This document shows, piece after piece, positions 2,689-13,051 of a DNA stretch of 20,041 bases. Made by a program: the position numbers and the translations under genes. Each line of letters opens with the position of its first letter. Within the stretch, counting starts at the first letter, position 1. This stretch comes from a virus. Where the stretch lies: IMG/VR virus record IMGVR_UViG_3300027969_000509, positions 1-20,041 of that record, one strand, 5' to 3'. The notes beneath the pieces are model-generated. The model saw only the letters and a list, made by a program, of their open reading frames with translations, was not told where the DNA came from and ran no database searches.

Positions 2689-3026
2689 ATTCCTAAATCC
2701 TTGCGAGCTTGGCTAATAGCATCTTTATTAACTTTATTTTTGTTTTCTTCTGCTTGTGCTTCTGTATCAGCAGATGGTACTGTTGTTAAAATTATTTCAT
2801 TGTTATTAACATCTGCTACAAGATTATTATTCTTAGCTTTGAATGTGGCGATCAATCCGCGAATGGCATTAACTTGGCCAGCGGCACTGAAACCCATTCG
2901 GTTCAATTGGTCTACCATGGCATTCATAGGAATTTTTGCTACACCATCATTTTGATTTTTAATAATCAACATTTTGATGGCGTTGGCAAAATTCTTATCA
3001 ACTGTGGCTAGTTCACTCAATACCAC
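2685..3026 (-). CDS. Hypothetical late protein, 113 aa
   Basis: Not recognised. Residues 1-70 look helical and basic to neutral (NFANAIKMLIIKNQNDGVAK, then MVDQLNRMGFSAAGQVNAIRGLIATFKAKNNN). A short beta-like segment (NEIILTTVP) and a charged Glu/Lys/Asn tail follow. The start is a GTG at 3026, supported by GGGAGA six nt upstream inside the end of the preceding gene, which gives a 14-nt overlap. A TTG two codons later is a weaker alternative. It is coupled to the following gene through ATGA. Its position in the late unit suggests a structural or head-internal role, unproven. Confidence 0.82.
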   Translation of the reverse strand: MVLSELATVDKNFANAIKMLIIKNQNDGVAKIPMNAMVDQLNRMGFSAAGQVNAIRGLIATFKAKNNNLVADVNNNEIILTTVPSADTEAQAEENKNKVNKDAISQARKDLGI

Positions 3027-3642
3027 TCTTCATCTCCCTGCCAGTGGTTTCACCTTCTGGACCTGAACTACTTGGGAAAATAGGAGCCGATGCATCAGCT
3101 GGTTCGCCTGACATGTCAGGACTTGCTACTTGACCGCCACTTGTCAATGAAGTGATAGCTGAGTCTAGTGTATTCTTAGTGTCCATTAAAGCTGTAATTG
3201 CCGCATCCAATGCTGCCTTAACAGTTTGGGCATACTGCTCGCCTGCGGCATCACCAAAGCGTTCTTTGATTTGATCAACCAAGGTGATCATATCGCTGCC
3301 TAGCATGTCAGCAACATCTTCAATCATGCCTTGGAATTCATGGTTCATTGCTTTGGCCGCAATAACTACTTCAGCTTGCTCAATATCAGCATCATCTAGC
3401 TCGCCTTCAAAAAGCACTGCATCAACGTTGGCCATTTCTTCATAAATTTCTCTATGAAGGATAGCTCGTGTATAAGCTTGTCCACCCTTGCTTGCTAAAA
3501 TGTTAATTTCTTCGTTAACACGGGCTAGCTCTGTTCTCAGGCGTCTTCCGCCCATGCTTTCAACTACAATGCTTTCTTTGCGTAATGCAGATCTAGCGGC
3601 TTGTGCTGGTGTTTTTATAGTTGTAATATCATTAAATTTCAT
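3013..3642 (-). CDS. Hypothetical late protein, 209 aa, possible virion or prohead component
   Basis: Not recognised by name. It is mostly helical and acidic. Residues 1-90 are charged (RSALRKESIVVESMGGRRLR, then a predicted helix around TELARVNEEINIL). A central acidic segment ELDDADIEQAEVV is followed by long Ala-rich helices to about residue 165. A low-complexity Gly/Ser/Pro/Ala tail, roughly residues 166-200, ends the protein. Disordered tails of this type are common in phage structural and scaffold proteins, which is suggestive only. It is the first gene after the late motif GCTAAATA, with a good ribosome site (CGGAGAAC) 8 nt before the ATG. Two coupled genes follow it. Confidence 0.85.
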   Translation of the reverse strand: MKFNDITTIKTPAQAARSALRKESIVVESMGGRRLRTELARVNEEINILASKGGQAYTRAILHREIYEEMANVDAVLFEGELDDADIEQAEVVIAAKAMNHEFQGMIEDVADMLGSDMITLVDQIKERFGDAAGEQYAQTVKAALDAAITALMDTKNTLDSAITSLTSGGQVASPDMSGEPADASAPIFPSSSGPEGETTGREMKSGIE

Positions 3643-3658
3643 AATGTTCTCCGTAATC

Positions 3659-3666
3659 TATTTAGC
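3659..3666 (-). promoter_or_regulatory. Late-type promoter box GCTAAATA upstream of the 209-aa gene
   Basis: A perfect GCTAAATA on the minus strand, overlapping the stop codon of the basic-protein gene and 16 nt before the ATG at 3642. It resembles the T4 late -10 box TATAAATA read by the gp55 sigma factor. One of five perfect copies in the window, all at gene starts. Confidence 0.65.
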
Positions 3667-3928
3667 GTCTTTTTTTGTTTAACTTGGTCACACGTTTACT
3701 TAGTGGGTTAAATTTCTTGGTACGTTTGATTTTCATTGCAATTCTGCCACGCATTTTGGCTTTTGTGCGCTTAAAACGTAAACGCTTTTTGATGTCAATT
3801 TTCTTGCTACAACTACTAGCGGCGCTAACAACTCTACCACGTTTGCGTCCAGAAGTACAGCGAACTTTGCGCTTGATTTTTTTACCACTTCTGGCCCAGA
3901 CTATTTTAGCTTCAACTAGTATTTTCAT
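3662..3928 (-). CDS. Very basic small protein, 88 aa, possible DNA-associated head protein
   Basis: 37 of 88 residues are Lys or Arg and only two are acidic, so the predicted charge is extremely positive. It has two cysteines (in VRCTSGRKRGRVV and SSCSKKID) that could bind metal or form a disulfide, and a Lys/Arg-rich C-terminal half with KRT repeats (FKRTKAK, IKRTKKF). The composition suits nucleic-acid binding or DNA packaging in the capsid. I recall similar small basic proteins in marine T4-like phages but cannot give a firm name. It lies 3 nt after the coiled-coil/membrane gene and shares its late promoter. The opposite-strand frame here is a shadow. Confidence 0.82.
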   Translation of the reverse strand: MKILVEAKIVWARSGKKIKRKVRCTSGRKRGRVVSAASSCSKKIDIKKRLRFKRTKAKMRGRIAMKIKRTKKFNPLSKRVTKLNKKRR

Positions 3929-3931
3929 TTA

Positions 3932-4216
3932 TTATTTTTGCAAATGTGTGATTACATAACCCAACATTGCTAATAAACCTACAATTACAGTTGCAGTAGA
4001 TGTAACCATAATCTTGAATTTCTCATCTTTTGCGCTACTTAACATGGACTTGATGTCACTCATTGCCCTTGAATTTTCTATCTTAAATGCATTAAAATCA
4101 CCATGTAGATGATCCAACCCACTCTCAACATCTTTAAACTTTTCTTCTAGACGAGCGTATCGCTCAGCACACAATTCAACGTGCATTTCTAGGCTTGAAC
4201 TTTCTGTGATAGCCAT
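3932..4216 (-). CDS. Small coiled-coil protein with C-terminal membrane helix
   Basis: A 94-residue protein in two parts. Residues 10-65 form a charged, heptad-like helical region (ERYARLEEKFKDVESGLDHL). Residues 69-90 form one strongly hydrophobic segment (IMVTSTATVIVGLLAMLGYV) ending in HLQK. This layout resembles XhlA-type and related tail-anchored phage membrane proteins, so a role in lysis or membrane attachment is possible, but no family signature settles it. AAAGAG lies 5 nt before the ATG. A GCTAAATA late motif stands 117 nt upstream, leaving an unusually long untranslated leader. It is followed directly by the basic protein. Confidence 0.82.
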   Translation of the reverse strand: MAITESSSLEMHVELCAERYARLEEKFKDVESGLDHLHGDFNAFKIENSRAMSDIKSMLSSAKDEKFKIMVTSTATVIVGLLAMLGYVITHLQK

Positions 4217-4333
4217 TTAACTCTTTACCCATAGATAATTCACACAAGGTGATTCATATCAGCAGTGTGATTTTTTAACGAGCCATAATGGAGCCAGGGT
4301 GAGTTGTGTACTAACGTTGTTTTTATTATGCTG
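4217..4333 (-). other. Long 5' leader between late motif and the coiled-coil/membrane gene
   Basis: About 117 nt with no ORF beyond a few codons. On the minus strand it holds a TCACAC...GTGTGA inverted repeat (6-bp arms, 19-nt loop) and a small CCATTATGG odd palindrome. No recognised riboswitch or terminator was seen. Confidence 0.4.
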
Positions 4334-4341
4334 TATTTAGC
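4334..4341 (-). promoter_or_regulatory. Late-type promoter box GCTAAATA upstream of 4216-3662
   Basis: A perfect GCTAAATA on the minus strand, 4 nt beyond the stop of the 136-aa gene. It is the only copy that stands far (117 nt) from the next ATG. Confidence 0.6.
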
Positions 4342-4345
4342 AAAT

Positions 4346-4756
4346 TTAGAAAGTTTCGTGGCGTATAAAAAACATATTAGTCTCAGGTCCTGATGTAATA
4401 GCGCGGCCTGGTAGGGTAACAGTTTCAGTGAGTCCAACAGTCATGTACTGTTCGTTTGATTCAATTGACAATGTTTCTTCTGTCATTTGTCCAACACCAC
4501 TGGCAATCCATTTTAAACACCACACTCGTTGTTTACCCGAGTAAGCTTCTCCAAAGATTTCAGTCCCTAAGTCTTGGTTTTCAAAACACTCAACACTGGC
4601 CAACAGTGGTTGACCACGAGCGGCCACAATGCTCATGAGTGTGGCTAAATTATCTCGCCCATCTGGGCCAATATCATATAATGTCCACGCAGAAAAGAAT
4701 TCAGGATCTCCACCAAAGTGAGAACCCGGAATTGTGTACGACTTTTTGTCAGACAT
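4346..4756 (-). CDS. Hypothetical late protein, 136 aa
   Basis: Not recognised. Probably a soluble beta-rich protein. It carries GSHFGGDPEFFSAWTLYDIG near the start, a central VWCLKWIASGVGQM, and a strand-rich C-terminus (YMTVGLTETVTLPG, NMFFIRHETF). There are no signal peptide and no membrane segments. The start ATG overlaps the stop of the preceding gene by one nucleotide (TAATG), so the two are translationally coupled. It is the last gene of the five-gene late unit that begins at 8108. A virion or assembly role is inferred from that context alone. Confidence 0.83.
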   Translation of the reverse strand: MSDKKSYTIPGSHFGGDPEFFSAWTLYDIGPDGRDNLATLMSIVAARGQPLLASVECFENQDLGTEIFGEAYSGKQRVWCLKWIASGVGQMTEETLSIESNEQYMTVGLTETVTLPGRAITSGPETNMFFIRHETF

Positions 4757-5505
4757 TACATGTTTCTTCCAATTGCATAACCCACAGCAAACCCGCCTGC
4801 GGCTTTGGCTACACCAGATAAAAATCCATTCCCAGACCTTGACCCAACAATTGAGCCAGCACCCACTGCCGCAAGTTCTGCATTGCCAACATCAGTAAGT
4901 TCCATTCCCTTGTTTCTAGCTAATGCTTCTAGTACAGGTAGTAACTCACTACGACGGCCACGCAATCTGTAATACTGTAGTAGACGGGTAACACATAATT
5001 GATGCTGAATAGTTGTTAAATTTTCCCAGTCTGTAATTAGACGTCTTAGACTTTTGTAGTTGCTGATGTCAATGCCCATCTGGCCTTCAAGCCTATACAT
5101 AATACGAATAGCAGTGGTACGATCAAGTGTACCACTTGCAATACCACGGAGGAAATCTTTTACTAGTTTTGCATTGGTATGTAATTGAGTTGCCAGTGCT
5201 GAATTTTGTTCTCCAGCCTTTAACAACGATGCAGTGTGCCCGGTTGGGTATAGCATGATGTGCAGGCCTTGGTATAGGTCTGTACCGCCAACTCTCGGAG
5301 TTGTAAAATTTGCAAACGACATTGTACGAGTTGCGTACTCTTGTGCAAATGGACGAGTTTCAAATTCCTTACTCAACATGTAAAGTGTAAGCAAGTTAAG
5401 AAATACACTATCAACTGTATCACGCAAGGTTAACTGATTAAGATAGTTGTTACGAAACATTTTGCTTTCGTTGCAGTTCTCTTTAATAAAACTAAAGTCT
5501 TCCAT
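4756..5505 (-). CDS. Hypothetical late protein, 249 aa, with Gly/Ala-rich hydrophobic C-terminus
   Basis: Not recognised. Residues 1-200 are helical with several Arg/Leu-rich segments (ITDWENLTTIQHQL, RLLQYYRLRGRRSEL). The last 40 residues are small, glycine- and alanine-rich and mildly hydrophobic (ELAAVGAGSIVGS, then GVAKAAGGFAVGYAIGRNM). That tail resembles glycine-zipper or membrane-interacting segments and could mark a protein that inserts into a membrane or packs tightly in a virion. The gene starts 1 nt after the stop of the ligase-like gene and is coupled to the 136-aa gene. Its late-unit position suggests a structural function, unproven. Confidence 0.84.
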   Translation of the reverse strand: MEDFSFIKENCNESKMFRNNYLNQLTLRDTVDSVFLNLLTLYMLSKEFETRPFAQEYATRTMSFANFTTPRVGGTDLYQGLHIMLYPTGHTASLLKAGEQNSALATQLHTNAKLVKDFLRGIASGTLDRTTAIRIMYRLEGQMGIDISNYKSLRRLITDWENLTTIQHQLCVTRLLQYYRLRGRRSELLPVLEALARNKGMELTDVGNAELAAVGAGSIVGSRSGNGFLSGVAKAAGGFAVGYAIGRNM

Positions 5506-5506
5506 A

Positions 5507-6661
5507 TTATACCTTTTTCATAAACACAGGTCTGTTTACAATTTTAATTTTACCATGTGGTGTATCTGACACAAACCCTTCGTGTCCTGGTTCATCTCTA
5601 ACTGTGGCTGTAACTGCCGCATCATGTCCAGCATGTGCATCCAGTTGCGTTTTTAACTTGTATTTGAGTGCAACTAATTTATTGGCAACTTCAAACACTC
5701 CGGTAAATCCAGCCTTGTTCTTACTAATGTGATCTAGCACATTTTGTAGCTTGTTGGCTGTTAGTTTGCTTCTCATTGGATCTTGTAACCAGGCCATAAA
5801 ATCTTTACTACTCAGGCCTTGTTGCCCAATGCCAGCTCTGTAATTTAAATAACTCTTAAAGATATCTGGTAAGTTAGAAATTTTCAATGAGCTTATTGAA
5901 AAGTTGTCTAGCAACTTGTCAATGGCATTGCCATATTTTTTAATAACGTTGTCCACTTGTGCAATGTCTTCTTCGGATAATTCAAAAGGAGCAGATCTAA
6001 CCTGCATTACAGGGCTTAGTACAACAAGTCCAGGACTAGGTTTCAGCTTTTCAATTTCAGCAGGTGTCATTGCTCTTGGCTCTTCTTCTGCGGTGCTTGT
6101 AAAGTAGCTATGCACAACAATACCTGCTTTGCTTGCTTTAATTTTCTTACCCAAGTCACTGGCCGGGTCAATTGTGTACTTTACCTTTAATGGCTGTATT
6201 TCAATTACTCCGTCGTGTACTACAGGAGTACTCATCCACATGATGTCACCTTGGACAAAGCCACGAAACTTGGCAGGAACAATCTTCTCCAGCATCGGAT
6301 ACAGACTAGCAATTTGTGTTGAGTATTCCAAACGTCCTTGGTCATCTGGTTTGCGATTGTAAATCATGTCACGGAACATTTTAGCACTACGAGCCATGCC
6401 ATCATATTTTTTGGCACCAAAGCCGGCCTTGTCAGTCATGATGAAACCATTTTCATCTCGACCAAATATAATTGCAGGAGTACCATCCCACTTGACTGAG
6501 TTAACAGTAGGATCAACTGCCGCGTGTTTCATTGCATCAAGTGCTCGTTGTGCACCGCCGCTGCCTTCTTCAAATACCAAGTCTTCTGGATGGTCAATAC
6601 GAGCCTTGGCTTCTGACAGCAGGGACTTCTTTTTGTATGTTGCTATTTCAAATATTTTCAT
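5507..6661 (-). CDS. Nucleotidyltransferase/ligase-like protein (resembles DUF6267-type phage proteins)
   Basis: A 384-residue protein with motifs, in order, of the covalent nucleotidyltransferase (DNA/RNA ligase, capping enzyme) superfamily. Motif I is KWDG at 57-60 in NSVKWDGTPAIIFGRD. A motif III-like FVQGDIMW lies at 135-142 and a possible IIIa strand AGIVVHSYF at 179-187. Motif IV is EGFV at 361-364 and motif V is KIKIVN at 371-376. A helical insert (about 230-345) separates IIIa from IV. Lys57 would be the AMP/GMP-linked lysine. From memory it matches a family of unknown function common in T4-like phages of marine hosts (N-terminal signature HPEDLVFEEGS...GA). The ligase link is my inference from motif order. 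It lies in a late unit rather than with replication genes. It overlaps the preceding gene by ATGA. Confidence 0.8.
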   Translation of the reverse strand: MKIFEIATYKKKSLLSEAKARIDHPEDLVFEEGSGGAQRALDAMKHAAVDPTVNSVKWDGTPAIIFGRDENGFIMTDKAGFGAKKYDGMARSAKMFRDMIYNRKPDDQGRLEYSTQIASLYPMLEKIVPAKFRGFVQGDIMWMSTPVVHDGVIEIQPLKVKYTIDPASDLGKKIKASKAGIVVHSYFTSTAEEEPRAMTPAEIEKLKPSPGLVVLSPVMQVRSAPFELSEEDIAQVDNVIKKYGNAIDKLLDNFSISSLKISNLPDIFKSYLNYRAGIGQQGLSSKDFMAWLQDPMRSKLTANKLQNVLDHISKNKAGFTGVFEVANKLVALKYKLKTQLDAHAGHDAAVTATVRDEPGHEGFVSDTPHGKIKIVNRPVFMKKV

Positions 6662-7860
6662 GTTGTAGGGTTTGCATTGTTATATGCTTCTCTTGCTTTA
6701 TCGTATACATCTTTCATCTGCACAGGTGTAAGATTGGGATTGGTAGCCAACGCATTACGTAATGCAGTCTCTCCTGCGGTGTGAGAATCTGTCAATGATT
6801 GTATTTCTTCTTCAGCATCAGGTGATACCTGTGGTGCTTCTTTCTTTGCAGGGGTGCCGAACTTCATTTTGTCAACTAACACCATTGCACTGGCGCCCCA
6901 CGGCTCAACATAAAGATGCGAACTTTGATTTGGTGGGCCACCCGCCGCTGTTTCTTTGACTGCAATTTCTAACCAAATCTTAAATTGATTTTGAATTGCT
7001 GGTGTTGCCTTTGCTATAAGTTGATTTACTGCATCGGGGTTGACACTGGCTGAATGTCCAGACAATGCTGTCTTAAATTCAAGGGGACTAATTAGTGCTG
7101 GCGGATTTGCCAGTAAGGCCTGCAGTTTGGCATTATCTAATACTGCGTATTTTTTCTGTATGCCTTGAATCATCTGAATGATTAACCAATGCAAATGATC
7201 TTTGAAATCTTCATTTGGTTGTAACGCACGAATCTCAGCTGATGTAGGATCGCATAAAATTTCTTTAACTTGTTCGCCAGCGGCATTGAAACTTTCCAAG
7301 TCTGCTGGTTCAATGTTGTAGTCTTCTAAGTCTTCTTTGGTTGTTTTAATGTAGATGATTGCGCCTGCTACAATCATTGAAACTGCTTTCATTGCTGGTT
7401 CTACTTCCATGCCAATGTTTGAGGAACCAGTTCCGCCTAAGATTGAATCAAATATTAATTTAATTTGATTGTTGTCTCCAACATTACTTGAAAGTACTAA
7501 GCGTTCAATATCAGCACGATTTGATCTAATTGTTTGCCCAACTTGCCCAACATCAACATTCATTTGATCAGAGGCTGCAACCTGTTTTGCGGCTGAAATG
7601 GCTTGTTGATAAATCATGGTAACTGGTAGTGGTGCCTTACCAGAGTTAATCAAGTCAAGTTGATTGCCTACACGTTGCATAACTTTGTTACGTGTGGCAT
7701 TTGTAATAGCATCAGCAAATTTTCTCAATGCGGCATCTTGGCCGCGCAATGCTCGAATGATACCAGTAGGGCCATCTCCGCCTGCCATGGATTGCACTTT
7801 AGAAACTAAATTATCTAAAAATCCTTCATCTAATTGACGTTGTAAATCATTTACTTTCAC
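6658..7860 (-). CDS. Hypothetical late protein, 400 aa, helical
   Basis: Not recognised. A large, mainly helical protein. A short N-terminal amphipathic stretch (VNDLQRQLDEGFLDNLVSKV) is followed by Gly-rich GGDGPTG. A hydrophobic patch lies near residue 165 (AVSMIVAGAIIYIKT), too short and isolated to be called a membrane helix with confidence. A segment around 305-330 holds GGPPNQSSHLYVEPWGASAM, and the C-terminus is acidic and Ala/Asn-rich. The start is GTG at 7860, overlapping the stop of the 83-aa gene (GTGA). The end overlaps the ligase-like gene (ATGA). Tight coupling in the late unit suggests these proteins act in the same assembly process. Confidence 0.85.
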   Translation of the reverse strand: MKVNDLQRQLDEGFLDNLVSKVQSMAGGDGPTGIIRALRGQDAALRKFADAITNATRNKVMQRVGNQLDLINSGKAPLPVTMIYQQAISAAKQVAASDQMNVDVGQVGQTIRSNRADIERLVLSSNVGDNNQIKLIFDSILGGTGSSNIGMEVEPAMKAVSMIVAGAIIYIKTTKEDLEDYNIEPADLESFNAAGEQVKEILCDPTSAEIRALQPNEDFKDHLHWLIIQMIQGIQKKYAVLDNAKLQALLANPPALISPLEFKTALSGHSASVNPDAVNQLIAKATPAIQNQFKIWLEIAVKETAAGGPPNQSSHLYVEPWGASAMVLVDKMKFGTPAKKEAPQVSPDAEEEIQSLTDSHTAGETALRNALATNPNLTPVQMKDVYDKAREAYNNANPTT

Positions 7861-8108
7861 TGGTCGTTTTCCTTGATAGATCGTACACCTCGAGTAAATT
7901 TGGCTGTGTCTCCGTTTTTAATGGCTAGCTGTAATCGTCTAATTAATTCATCAGCTTGATGCTGTGGATAATTTTGCTGAATTACTTCCATTAAATTAAT
8001 TACACGGGCAATAGCTTGCACAGCTAAACCCTCAACAAGTAAGTGCTTATCTTGCTTTGGGACTAGCCCTGTAATTTCGTCTAAAATACTTCGAGTGTGT
8101 TTTCGCAT
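7857..8108 (-). CDS. Hypothetical small helical protein, first gene of late unit
   Basis: Not recognised. 83 residues, all-helical by composition (VEGLAVQAIARVINLMEVIQ, ADELIRRLQLAIKNGDTAKF), with a basic N-terminus (MRKHTRS). A longer frame would start at 8156, but that runs back through the divergent promoter. The ATG at 8108 stands 7 nt after a perfect GCTAAATA box, so I chose 8108. There is no Shine-Dalgarno sequence, and a transcript from that box would have almost no leader. It is coupled to the next gene by a GTGA overlap. Confidence 0.8.
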   Translation of the reverse strand: MRKHTRSILDEITGLVPKQDKHLLVEGLAVQAIARVINLMEVIQQNYPQHQADELIRRLQLAIKNGDTAKFTRGVRSIKENDQ

Positions 8109-8115
8109 ATTAATA

Positions 8116-8123
8116 TATTTAGC
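8116..8123 (-). promoter_or_regulatory. Late-type promoter box GCTAAATA, leftward half of divergent palindrome
   Basis: Minus-strand GCTAAATA, 7 nt before the ATG at 8108. It shares its GC with the rightward copy, together forming the perfect 14-nt palindrome TATTTAGCTAAATA (8116-8129). Confidence 0.7.
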
Positions 8124-8129
8124 TAAATA
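8122..8129 (+). promoter_or_regulatory. Late-type promoter box GCTAAATA, rightward half of divergent palindrome
   Basis: Plus-strand GCTAAATA, 21 nt before the ATG at 8151. The ribosome site AGGAG at 8138-8142 lies 8 nt before that ATG, so this transcript has a normal short leader. Confidence 0.7.
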
Positions 8130-8150
8130 ATCTATATAGGAGATTGTAAA

Positions 8151-8579
8151 ATGCAATTATCGCCAAGCGCACAACAATTAAGGGACTTAGCCAATAAGAT
8201 TTCCCGTTTAAATGAGTATGATACTCATACGGATACTGGGGAACCAGACCACGACATTAGCTCTGGTGAGCTTGCACGTTTAAAAATGGCGTTGGGGCCA
8301 CTGGTAAGTGATGAGCTACAAAGTCGTTTTATGCAAACATTGAATAAAATGGCAAGTGGCCAGCCAGTAACTTTTTCAGAATCAAAGCTAATCACAGCGG
8401 CTTTTATTAGCATGGCAGACATCATTGCAAGTGATCCTTCGTTGATTGGTAGATTACGCAAAGACATTAGAGATTTTAATGTAGAGCAAGATGCAGAAGA
8501 TGCCGTTGCACCTGAGGACGATATTGCCGCAGATGTAATGCCAGATGTTGGCGCTTCTGATCCGTACAGAATGAAGTAA
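8151..8579 (+). CDS. Hypothetical late protein on the plus strand, 142 aa
   Basis: Not recognised. It is one of only two plus-strand genes. The N-terminal half is helical (PSAQQLRDLANKISRLNEYD) and the middle has LARLKMALGPLVSDELQSRF and ESKLITAAFISMADIIASD. An acidic tail from about residue 112 (VEQDAEDAVAPEDDIAADVM) ends in DPYRMK. It has the best ribosome site in the region (AGGAG, 8 nt spacing). Its promoter is the rightward half of the palindromic late box. It ends exactly where gp41 ends on the other strand, with stop codons back to back and no terminator between them. The reverse-strand frame inside it is a shadow. Confidence 0.85.
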   Translation: MQLSPSAQQLRDLANKISRLNEYDTHTDTGEPDHDISSGELARLKMALGPLVSDELQSRFMQTLNKMASGQPVTFSESKLITAAFISMADIIASDPSLIGRLRKDIRDFNVEQDAEDAVAPEDDIAADVMPDVGASDPYRMK

Positions 8580-12092: not shown

Positions 12093-12467
12093 ATGGAAAG
12101 TAAAATCAAAGAATTTCTAGAACGGTTCCCGTTTATGAGCCTAGTTCGTTATGGAGACCAAGAATTAGTTGGAATTATACAAAACAGTGATCAAACTGTG
12201 GTCACTATGTACGTCTATAACTTACTCAAAGACGAAACGGATAAGATGCTGTTTGTGGAAATGGGCGAAGAATGGTGGTGGGGTAGTAACAGACTAATTC
12301 CTATCAATATTGTTCTTAAAGAACCTATGCGTAGATTTGTGTATGCCCTTAAAACCTATAGCACCAAAGACTTTGAAATGCTACACGGACATCAAACTAG
12401 CCTGATTAATGTAATTACCAAACGCACCAAACGCAGACAAATTAGTCTGGTGCGTAAAATGCATTAA
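12093..12467 (+). CDS. Conserved hypothetical phage protein on the plus strand
   Basis: 124 residues. I recall relatives in T4-like phages of marine bacteria but know no function. Features are FPFMSLVRYGDQELVGIIQN near the start, MYVYNLLKDETDKMLF, a striking GEEWWWGSNRLIPINIVL, and a basic tail RTKRRQISLVRKM. It is probably a small alpha/beta protein. An in-frame TTG precedes the ATG but the ATG at 12093 is preferred. There is no Shine-Dalgarno sequence and the late-box variant lies 6 nt upstream. It ends overlapping the Pol III-like gene by 4 nt in convergent orientation, with no terminator seen. Confidence 0.85.
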   Translation: MESKIKEFLERFPFMSLVRYGDQELVGIIQNSDQTVVTMYVYNLLKDETDKMLFVEMGEEWWWGSNRLIPINIVLKEPMRRFVYALKTYSTKDFEMLHGHQTSLINVITKRTKRRQISLVRKMH

Positions 12468-13051
12468 CTGAATCCGTAACTAATTTCTTCACAGATCAAA
12501 TTCATTTGTGCCACAATGGCAACTGCATAAGCAGTGGCATGACTCTTCTTAAAGTAGTACTCACCATTCTCTGGCTTCGTCCATACTTCCTTCATAATCG
12601 CACTCCATGGCTTCCCAATCAAATAGCGTTTGGCCGGGCGTATCATTGCCAAGACGGCAGCTAATTGTTCCACGGAAGTTGGGCAAGTCTTCTTCAGTGT
12701 ATCCACATGCCCGTTCAAATGAAATAAAAGATTCACAAAGCCCTCGTCTAATAGTAAATCCCATAGTGGCTCCTGGTTTGATAGTCTATTTAACTCTTCT
12801 TTGCTTTTGATGCGTTGATACAAGCTTACGTTAAGCAAGTCAACTTTGAAGAAACCTGCTTCCTCTGCTTGTTGATAATCGATATTACACCAACCTGTGT
12901 ATGGGTTAACAGGAACAGGATGGAAGTACACTCCTGTTTTATGCTTTTGTCTTGTACCATTGGGCATTTTTAATGTCGCTGGTACATGTGCCAATAATTT
13001 TAGCACTTGTTCTCTATCTGCAAAGTCAATGTCTACGTCTGGTTGGCTCAT
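12464..13051 (-). CDS. Miniature DNA polymerase III alpha (C-family) palm-like protein
   Basis: 195 residues that align by eye with separated pieces of the palm/fingers of bacterial DnaE (about 1160 aa). QPDVDIDFADREQVL matches PDFDVDF...RDQV, giving Asp7 and Asp9 as counterparts of E. coli D401/D403. KHKTGVYFHP corresponds to KHAGGVVIAP. CNIDYQQAEEAGFFKVDLLN matches the stretch before KFDFLGL, giving Asp71 as D555. Next come LLFHLNGHVDTLKK (FQLESRGMKDLIK), EQLAAVLAMIRPA (ALFRPGP), and FKKSHATAYAVAIVAQM (FNKSHSAAYALVSYQ). The PHP, thumb, beta-binding and OB domains are absent, and two internal stretches are strongly shortened. All three catalytic acids remain. Activity, if any, is unknown; it could be a regulator or decoy. 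It is coupled to the coiled-coil gene by ATGA, at the end of the UvsW unit. Confidence 0.85.
   Translation of the reverse strand: MSQPDVDIDFADREQVLKLLAHVPATLKMPNGTRQKHKTGVYFHPVPVNPYTGWCNIDYQQAEEAGFFKVDLLNVSLYQRIKSKEELNRLSNQEPLWDLLLDEGFVNLLFHLNGHVDTLKKTCPTSVEQLAAVLAMIRPAKRYLIGKPWSAIMKEVWTKPENGEYYFKKSHATAYAVAIVAQMNLICEEISYGFS

Follow-up and report, generated by a model that had tools for sequence, protein, structure and literature searches.

The DUF6267 gene and its conserved residues

The window analyzed here is a 20-kb virus fragment (20,041 nucleotides), positions 1 to 20,041 of the IMG/VR record IMGVR_UViG_3300027969_000509. Its minus strand harbors, at 5507-6661, an open reading frame (ORF) with an ATG start whose product of 384 amino acids (aa), a putative covalent nucleotidyltransferase, is the subject of this report; residue numbers refer to this product, and the features of the locus are listed in Table 1. 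The protein matches the Pfam family DUF6267 over its full length (residues 22-381), with 114 bits against a curated cut-off of 27. An antisense reading of the same interval was dismissed, the plus strand being full of stops. The window protein as tblastn query retrieved 112 phage records; a cyanophage member retrieved 468, almost all from T4-like cyanophages. Among the matches listed, the proteins are annotated as hypothetical, and the literature searched contained no mention of DUF6267. Copies also occur in contigs that had been assigned to bacterial or archaeal genomes (loci L214-L244, mostly metagenome bins), which are probably phage contigs or prophages.

Table 1. Coordinates of the features discussed in the text; a slash within a sequence marks a proposed prohead protease cut
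Feature	Position	Strand	Evidence
DUF6267 gene, proposed covalent nucleotidyltransferase, 384 aa	5507..6661	-	PF19782 E 1.3e-32; AlphaFold2 (AF2) pLDDT 91.9
N-terminal leader, residues 1-17 (MKIFEIATYKKKSLLSE), proposed capsid-targeting, gp21-type cleavage E17/A18	6611..6661	-	family conservation; disordered in AF2
Motif I KWDG (57-60), K57 the proposed nucleotidylated lysine	6482..6493	-	K57, D59, G60 invariant
Motif Ia region, residues 73-78	6428..6445	-	alignments; K78 nearly invariant
Motif III QGDIMW (137-142)	6236..6253	-	alignment and AF2; D139 invariant
Motif IIIa-like strand, residues 179-187	6101..6127	-	alignment and AF2; H184 invariant
Helical insert, residues ~230-345	5627..5974	-	AF2 and member comparison
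Motif IV EGFV (361-364)	5570..5581	-	alignment; E361 and G362 invariant
Motif V region KIKIVNR (371-377)	5531..5551	-	alignments; K373 and R377 invariant, unlike K371
Adjacent upstream gene, 400 aa, leader QLDE/G	6658..7860	-	synteny conserved in 22 loci; leader
Small gene, PHROG virion structural protein	7857..8156	-	phrog_11854 E 4.9e-16; homologs in 55 loci
Adjacent downstream gene, 249 aa	4756..5505	-	homologs in 56 loci
Very basic 88-aa protein, leader MKILVE/A	3662..3928	-	sequence; homologs in 22 loci
PHROG virion structural protein, leader VVE/S	3013..3642	-	phrog_14154 E 3.9e-14

A first-pass annotation made from the sequence had assigned the motifs KWDG, FVQGDIMW (residues 135-142), EGFV and KIK to this protein, and all are found at the positions it gave. 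In the alignment of 68 relatives, K57, W58, D59, G60, P62, F73, D139, Y162, H184, K333, E361, G362, K373, V375, R377 and F380 are invariant, including Lys57 and Glu361, whose conservation had been set beforehand as a refutation test; within KIK, K373 is conserved but K371 and the rest of the motif are not. Most of the 68 rows were retrieved with a pattern containing K[WY]DG, so that the invariance at 57-60 is partly built in; D139, E361 and K373 are absent from this pattern, and K[W/Y/I]DG is kept in 11/11 phage proteins found by tblastn without it. Judging from the alignment, the motif set is above chance because K57, D59, G60, D139, H184, E361, G362, K373 and R377 are invariant throughout. 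No positions of the family are more strongly conserved than the catalytic-type residues, which persist down to about 22% identity; such sequence conservation is at odds with a dead enzyme. The acid of motif III is always Asp, never Glu, and the window protein extends about 10 residues beyond motif V, with no OB-fold domain there.

Fold, ligase-like relatives and the Pol-beta partner

The AF2 model, run with the alignment of relatives as input, has a pTM of 0.87 and a disordered segment at residues 1-18. Strands 54-57, 63-69, 72-77, 134-142, 179-187, 362-367 and 370-375 bear motifs I, Ia, III, IIIa, IV and V in ligase order, and a helical block lies between motifs IIIa and IV, in agreement with the IIIa-like strand and the helical insert that had been predicted ahead of motif IV. 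In a fold comparison run by Foldseek against the PDB, ligases come out on top (15 of the 50 top matches, including ranks 1, 2 and 4), but the best E is only 0.17, with TM-scores of about 0.2, and no match reaches E ≤ 0.001. These ligase matches represent four enzymes, the Naegleria RNA ligase (Rnl), LIG1, the yeast tRNA ligase and a Pyrococcus ligase. In a BFVD fold search, RNA ligases come next after DUF6267 itself among the classes with a named function.

Sequence comparisons gave no significant direct match to any ligase family. PDB sequences searched with the protein and its profile yielded nothing relevant, and hmmscan of 68 DUF6267 members against Pfam recovered no ligase (Rnl1 PF09511, Rnl2 PF09414, ATP DNA ligase PF01068). 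Comparison by hhalign with alignments of T4-type Rnl1, Rnl2 and DNA ligase gave no significant match, though the two best segments to Rnl1, themselves non-significant, sit in register on motifs IV/V and I/Ia. Because these profile tests failed, DUF6267 should not, on sequence grounds, be filed in the Rnl1, Rnl2 or DNA ligase families. The ligase/capping-type identity first proposed is supported in part, by motif residues, strand order, the Foldseek ligases, a bridging family and linkage to a second nucleotidyltransferase (both described below), but not by any significant direct ligase match. From the model, the protein very probably adopts the covalent nucleotidyltransferase fold, and its status as a divergent covalent nucleotidyltransferase appears fairly secure, the fold evidence being short of proof.

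The bridging family is found in the jumbo phages Atu_ph07 and Phosso, where a KLDGS protein is encoded downstream of the DnaB gene and adjoins the same family of DNA polymerase beta-type (Pol-beta) nucleotidyltransferases that neighbors DUF6267 elsewhere. The proteins match Pfam RNA_ligase with E 0.002 (Atu_ph07) and 0.085 (Phosso), both below Pfam's own cut-off, and expansion of the Atu_ph07-type family added one new member only, from contig L213. Among 50 templates, this family scores best against DUF6267 (P 8e-5); in the reverse comparison DUF6267 is second only to L213 itself (P 8.6e-6) and is followed by Rnl1 (P 0.005). L213 alone shows two collinear stretches of similarity to DUF6267 (P 2.5e-4 and 4.6e-4), which cover motifs I and IV/V; its start, LNE/GIDHVDDL, may be compared with SE/AKARIDHPEDL in DUF6267, and PNTVVY and LKLVDKEKF are common to both. 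KxDG, PN[TS]hxY, EGhV and K[LV]VD[KR]xxF follow one another in the same order as in DUF6267, the last being absent in Atu_ph07. The three proteins differ from DUF6267 in having KLDGS where it has KWDG[ATS]P, Glu in motif III and long C-terminal parts, and no DUF6267-type insert was seen in them. Because the P values are pairwise and come from a small family, the bridge that these sequences suggest to known ligases is good but not final. The syntenic locus holds the bridging ligase-like gene in two of the three members (Atu_ph07 and Phosso).

At least four tandem paralogs with the leader-like starts MRWHQLTE/A and MRWDQLTE/A lie behind the Pol-beta gene of Atu_ph07 (47215-50592; L206:6558-9935). 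Their LYRG motif is reminiscent of ADP-ribosyltransferases, and they could possibly be an array of packaged effectors.

In 24 loci related to the window, a Pol-beta-type nucleotidyltransferase lies just upstream of DUF6267, frequently with a stop/start overlap, or is fused to it, forming the N-terminal half of the DUF6267 protein in L031, L042 and L047. These partners harbor LG[ST]xGxxxxSGDxD and a third invariant Asp, and bear leaders such as MILKE/GG, MILNE/GG and ITE/GG. Pfam gave no convincing nucleotidyltransferase match for them. The modeled fold of a partner (AF2, pLDDT 94) resembles those of DNA polymerases lambda, beta and mu (E 3e-5; 116 PDB matches at E ≤ 0.001) and thus places it in the Pol-beta superfamily. 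The window lacks the GSxG..SGDxD pattern, which weighs against an end-healing pair at this very locus and also ruled out the adjacent upstream gene, which fills the slot that Pol-beta holds in other lineages, as a hidden Pol-beta. In a 72%-identical relative (L102 record), the Pol-beta gene, with the leader IVKE/GG, is found elsewhere in the genome.

The N-terminal leader and the gene neighborhood

The leader of the window protein ends in LLSE/A. Among its relatives, 53/66 have a leader ending in [LIVMF]xE/[AGSDN] just ahead of a conserved HxED motif, against 5% of background windows, a count inflated by common descent. Several distant members show the exact spacing of T4 internal proteins (MKSFKKYIAE/A, MKTFKKFIAE/D and MISFKTFIAE/A, compared with MKTYQEFIAE/A in T4 IPII and IPIII). 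The copy of a cultured phage, Methylophilales phage Melnitz, also bears a leader, MINFSKYITE/D, for which the predicted cut lies after E10. In the T4 leader, residues 4 and 7 direct targeting, and residues 8 and 10 processing (PMC9026906). In L094-L107 and L112, DUF6267 makes up the C-terminus of a longer protein, which reaches about 1060 aa in complete cases and has LTE/A at the junction, as if DUF6267 were released by the protease. A gp21-type protease and a gp23 capsid protein are encoded in three near relatives (L095, L102 and L106 records). Within the window, a leader-type cleavage site in the first 40 residues occurs in 6/28 minus-strand ORFs, all inside the eight-gene block 3013-8156, which was delimited after the leader result had been seen. 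From these sequence features, DUF6267 is likely to be packaged in the head in the lineage of the window.

Two further groups of proteins bear leader-like starts. The N-terminal part of about 690 aa in the longer proteins (L095:5931-8000 and equivalents in L094-L107 and L112) begins with leader-like sites and matches nothing in Pfam or PHROG; together with DUF6267 it looks like a polyprotein for prohead cleavage. Cytidylyltransferase/NMNAT-like proteins with T4-type leaders were found at L005:6173-7225 (MRFRQFIIE/A), L210:4893-6050 (MKKFSAFLTE/A), L209:2609-3469 (MKNFSSFLTE/A) and L072:10631-11446 (MKSFSQFINE/D), and such leaders may explain the published presence of these proteins in cyanophage virions (PMC10665884, PMC9602691, PMC3037559).

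The T4-like cyanophage copies (PF19782/phrog_455) match the family at full length and keep all invariant residues; many have about 296-299 aa, some 100 residues fewer than the window protein. They differ from it in that most of those examined are without a leader and many have a cytidylyltransferase-like gene in place of Pol-beta, linked or fused to DUF6267. In Kyanoviridae the leaderless gene lies beside UvsX, primase-helicase and MazG. The published virion list of S-CREM2 includes the cytidylyltransferase and the Pol-beta-like gp156 and does not list the DUF6267 copy gp87 (PMC10665884). Of these, gp156 (L209:4013-4726; Pfam NTP_transf_2 E 3.4e-4) figures in the proteome as a hypothetical protein, the cytidylyltransferase has the leader MKNFSSFLTE/A, and gp87 has none. 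This fits leader-dependent packaging, in one phage and with non-detection as weak evidence. The S-SM1 citidylyltransferase was also detected in virions (PMC3037559).

In 7/7 complete Kyanoviridae genomes with DUF6267, the ligase profiles PF01068, PF01653, PF09414 and PF09511 are all absent, whereas the T4 control has three of them. A review reports that gp30 homologs are missing from cyanomyoviruses and that distant homologs might exist (PMC2984593). DUF6267 is a candidate for this missing DNA ligase. A host ligase can substitute for a phage ligase. The Vibrio phage 2.275.O harbors a DNA ligase, an Rnl1 and an Rnl2-type gene besides DUF6267.

The late, probably structural surroundings that the first-pass annotation had described agree with the virion-type genes of the block 3013-8156, which is itself flanked by genes for primase, DnaB, a UvsW-like helicase and ribonucleotide reductase, so that the neighborhood is mixed. 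Because the T4-type late promoter TATAAATA is absent from the window, lateness is read from gene content alone. The start of the small gene at 7857..8156 is probably an internal Met at 8108. A gene resembling the downstream neighbor 4756..5505 follows Pol-beta in Atu_ph07 and Phosso (judged by eye). The 88-aa protein is extremely Lys/Arg-rich and resembles a small basic internal head or DNA-condensing protein. A gene-like ORF of 142 aa (8151-8579, plus strand) lies between DnaB and the virion-type block, nearly all else being on the opposite strand. In addition, an ORF of 195 aa (12464-13051, minus strand), starting MSQPDVDIDFADREQVLKLL, looks like a piece of the catalytic core of bacterial Pol III alpha (DnaE/PolC); some jumbo phages are reported to have a minimal Pol III in split form (PMC7824862).

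Proposed role and comparison with known systems

We give a probability of about 0.5 to the reading that DUF6267 is a covalent nucleotidyltransferase which is packaged in the head, injected, and active in the healing of ends together with a Pol-beta partner. Family, motifs, modeled topology, the ligase-like family link, the Pol-beta linkage and the leader are computed, and from them we infer cleavage, packaging, injection, ligation and substrate. The protein would be a divergent lysyl-nucleoside monophosphate (NMP) nucleotidyltransferase that belongs to the DNA/RNA-ligase superfamily, with Rnl1-type RNA ligases as its nearest relatives; made with a capsid-targeting leader, it would be drawn into the prohead. 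A gp21-type prohead protease would trim it at LLSE17/A18, and the trimmed protein would stay in the head and be injected with the DNA. After entry into the new host, the enzyme would become nucleotidylated at K57 and seal ends of nucleic acids; in many relatives, the neighboring or fused leader-bearing Pol-beta would restore missing nucleotides before sealing. Injection with the DNA, already suggested by the first-pass annotation, gains independent support from the capsid-targeting-like leader, but that of the window lacks the exact T4 spacing. On sequence evidence, action on nucleic-acid ends is somewhat favored; an RNA substrate is favored by the Rnl1-like motifs, and DNA by the resemblance of the partner to Pol lambda, the replication genes nearby and the need at injection.

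Several observations weigh against this reading. Besides the missing direct ligase match and the weak Foldseek values, motif III has Asp where ligases have Glu, motif V has a single conserved Lys, and no domain follows it. The leader motif is short, and that of the window, with 17 residues, is longer than the T4 leader. Leaderless cyanophage copies exist, one of them absent from the S-CREM2 list. Since close relatives (L102 and L106 records) have an Rnl2-type gene as well, DUF6267 may do something other than simple ligation.

One alternative is a packaged nucleotidylating effector of the same covalent fold, which would not seal nucleic-acid ends but transfer NMP onto a host protein or small molecule in the manner of Alt. 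T4 packages Alt, a modifier of a host protein, and enzymes of NAD and ADP-ribose are often packaged in myoviruses (PMC9503650); the link or fusion to a cytidylyltransferase-like protein in cyanophages and the lack, after motif V, of the domain that many ligases use for sealing also agree with it. We nevertheless consider it unlikely: a Pol-beta partner is present in 24 loci, and Atu_ph07 and Phosso have an RNA_ligase-like protein at the same locus, both of which suggest that the enzyme acts on nucleic-acid ends. Slightly less likely still is an ordinary replication or repair ligase, made in the infected cell and unpackaged, in which case the leader would be coincidental or an N-terminal extension of another kind. 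The leaderless Kyanoviridae genes among replication genes, the lack of a gp30-type ligase there (PMC2984593) and the S-CREM2 virion list would suit such an enzyme; the protease-type site in most members, T4-exact in several, its presence on Pol-beta partners and the virion-type gene block argue against it.

That DUF6267 serves in the head or scaffold, its nucleotidyltransferase fold having decayed and become inactive, is suggested by its virion-type neighbors and by the fusion to a large uncharacterized protein in close relatives, but is improbable given that the catalytic-type residues are its most conserved positions. We regard coincidence of motifs in an unrelated fold as very improbable: weak Foldseek E-values and the lack of a Pfam ligase match speak for it, whereas motif order, spacing and invariance, the ligases topping an unbiased fold list, and the ligase-like family standing first of 50 templates with collinear segments speak against it.

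Assignment to the ligase superfamily gives DUF6267 a testable chemistry, and if it is packaged with Pol-beta, some phages should inject a pair of repair enzymes. To our knowledge, the enzymes that T4-like phages package serve to modify host proteins, to act on nucleotide signals or to block restriction, and a packaged end-healing pair, if true, would be a new class of head cargo; no account of a packaged ligase of this type was found in the abstracts and selected passages covered by the literature search. As a tentative and rather doubtful extension, a large group of T4-like aquatic phages might package an end-healing kit of Pol-beta and DUF6267 ligase, both with leaders, trimmed or released from fusions by the prohead protease and acting at injection, the leaderless cyanophage DUF6267 being the unrecognized missing ligase.

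If its motifs act as they do elsewhere, DUF6267 would work like ligases. It resembles T4 Rnl1 in KxDGS, with a Lys about 20 residues on, and in EGYV...KIK, on which the best local profile segments fall. It differs from Rnl1 in the Asp of motif III, in the lack of a significant profile match and in the place of the helical part, which follows motif V in Rnl1 and lies between IIIa and IV in DUF6267. Jumbo phages pair Pol-beta enzymes with RNA ligases, known as RlaP (PMC7824862), and those DUF6267 loci that have a Pol-beta partner similarly couple a Pol-beta nucleotidyltransferase to a ligase-superfamily protein; unlike in that pair, the Pol-beta family here lacks a convincing Pfam match and both partners bear head-targeting-type leaders. 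With T4 IPI-IPIII and Alt, DUF6267 shares a leader ending in IxE/A or LxE/A for a gp21-type cut, with the exact T4 spacing in several relatives, whereas the cargo here is a ligase-like enzyme and the window leader is spaced differently.
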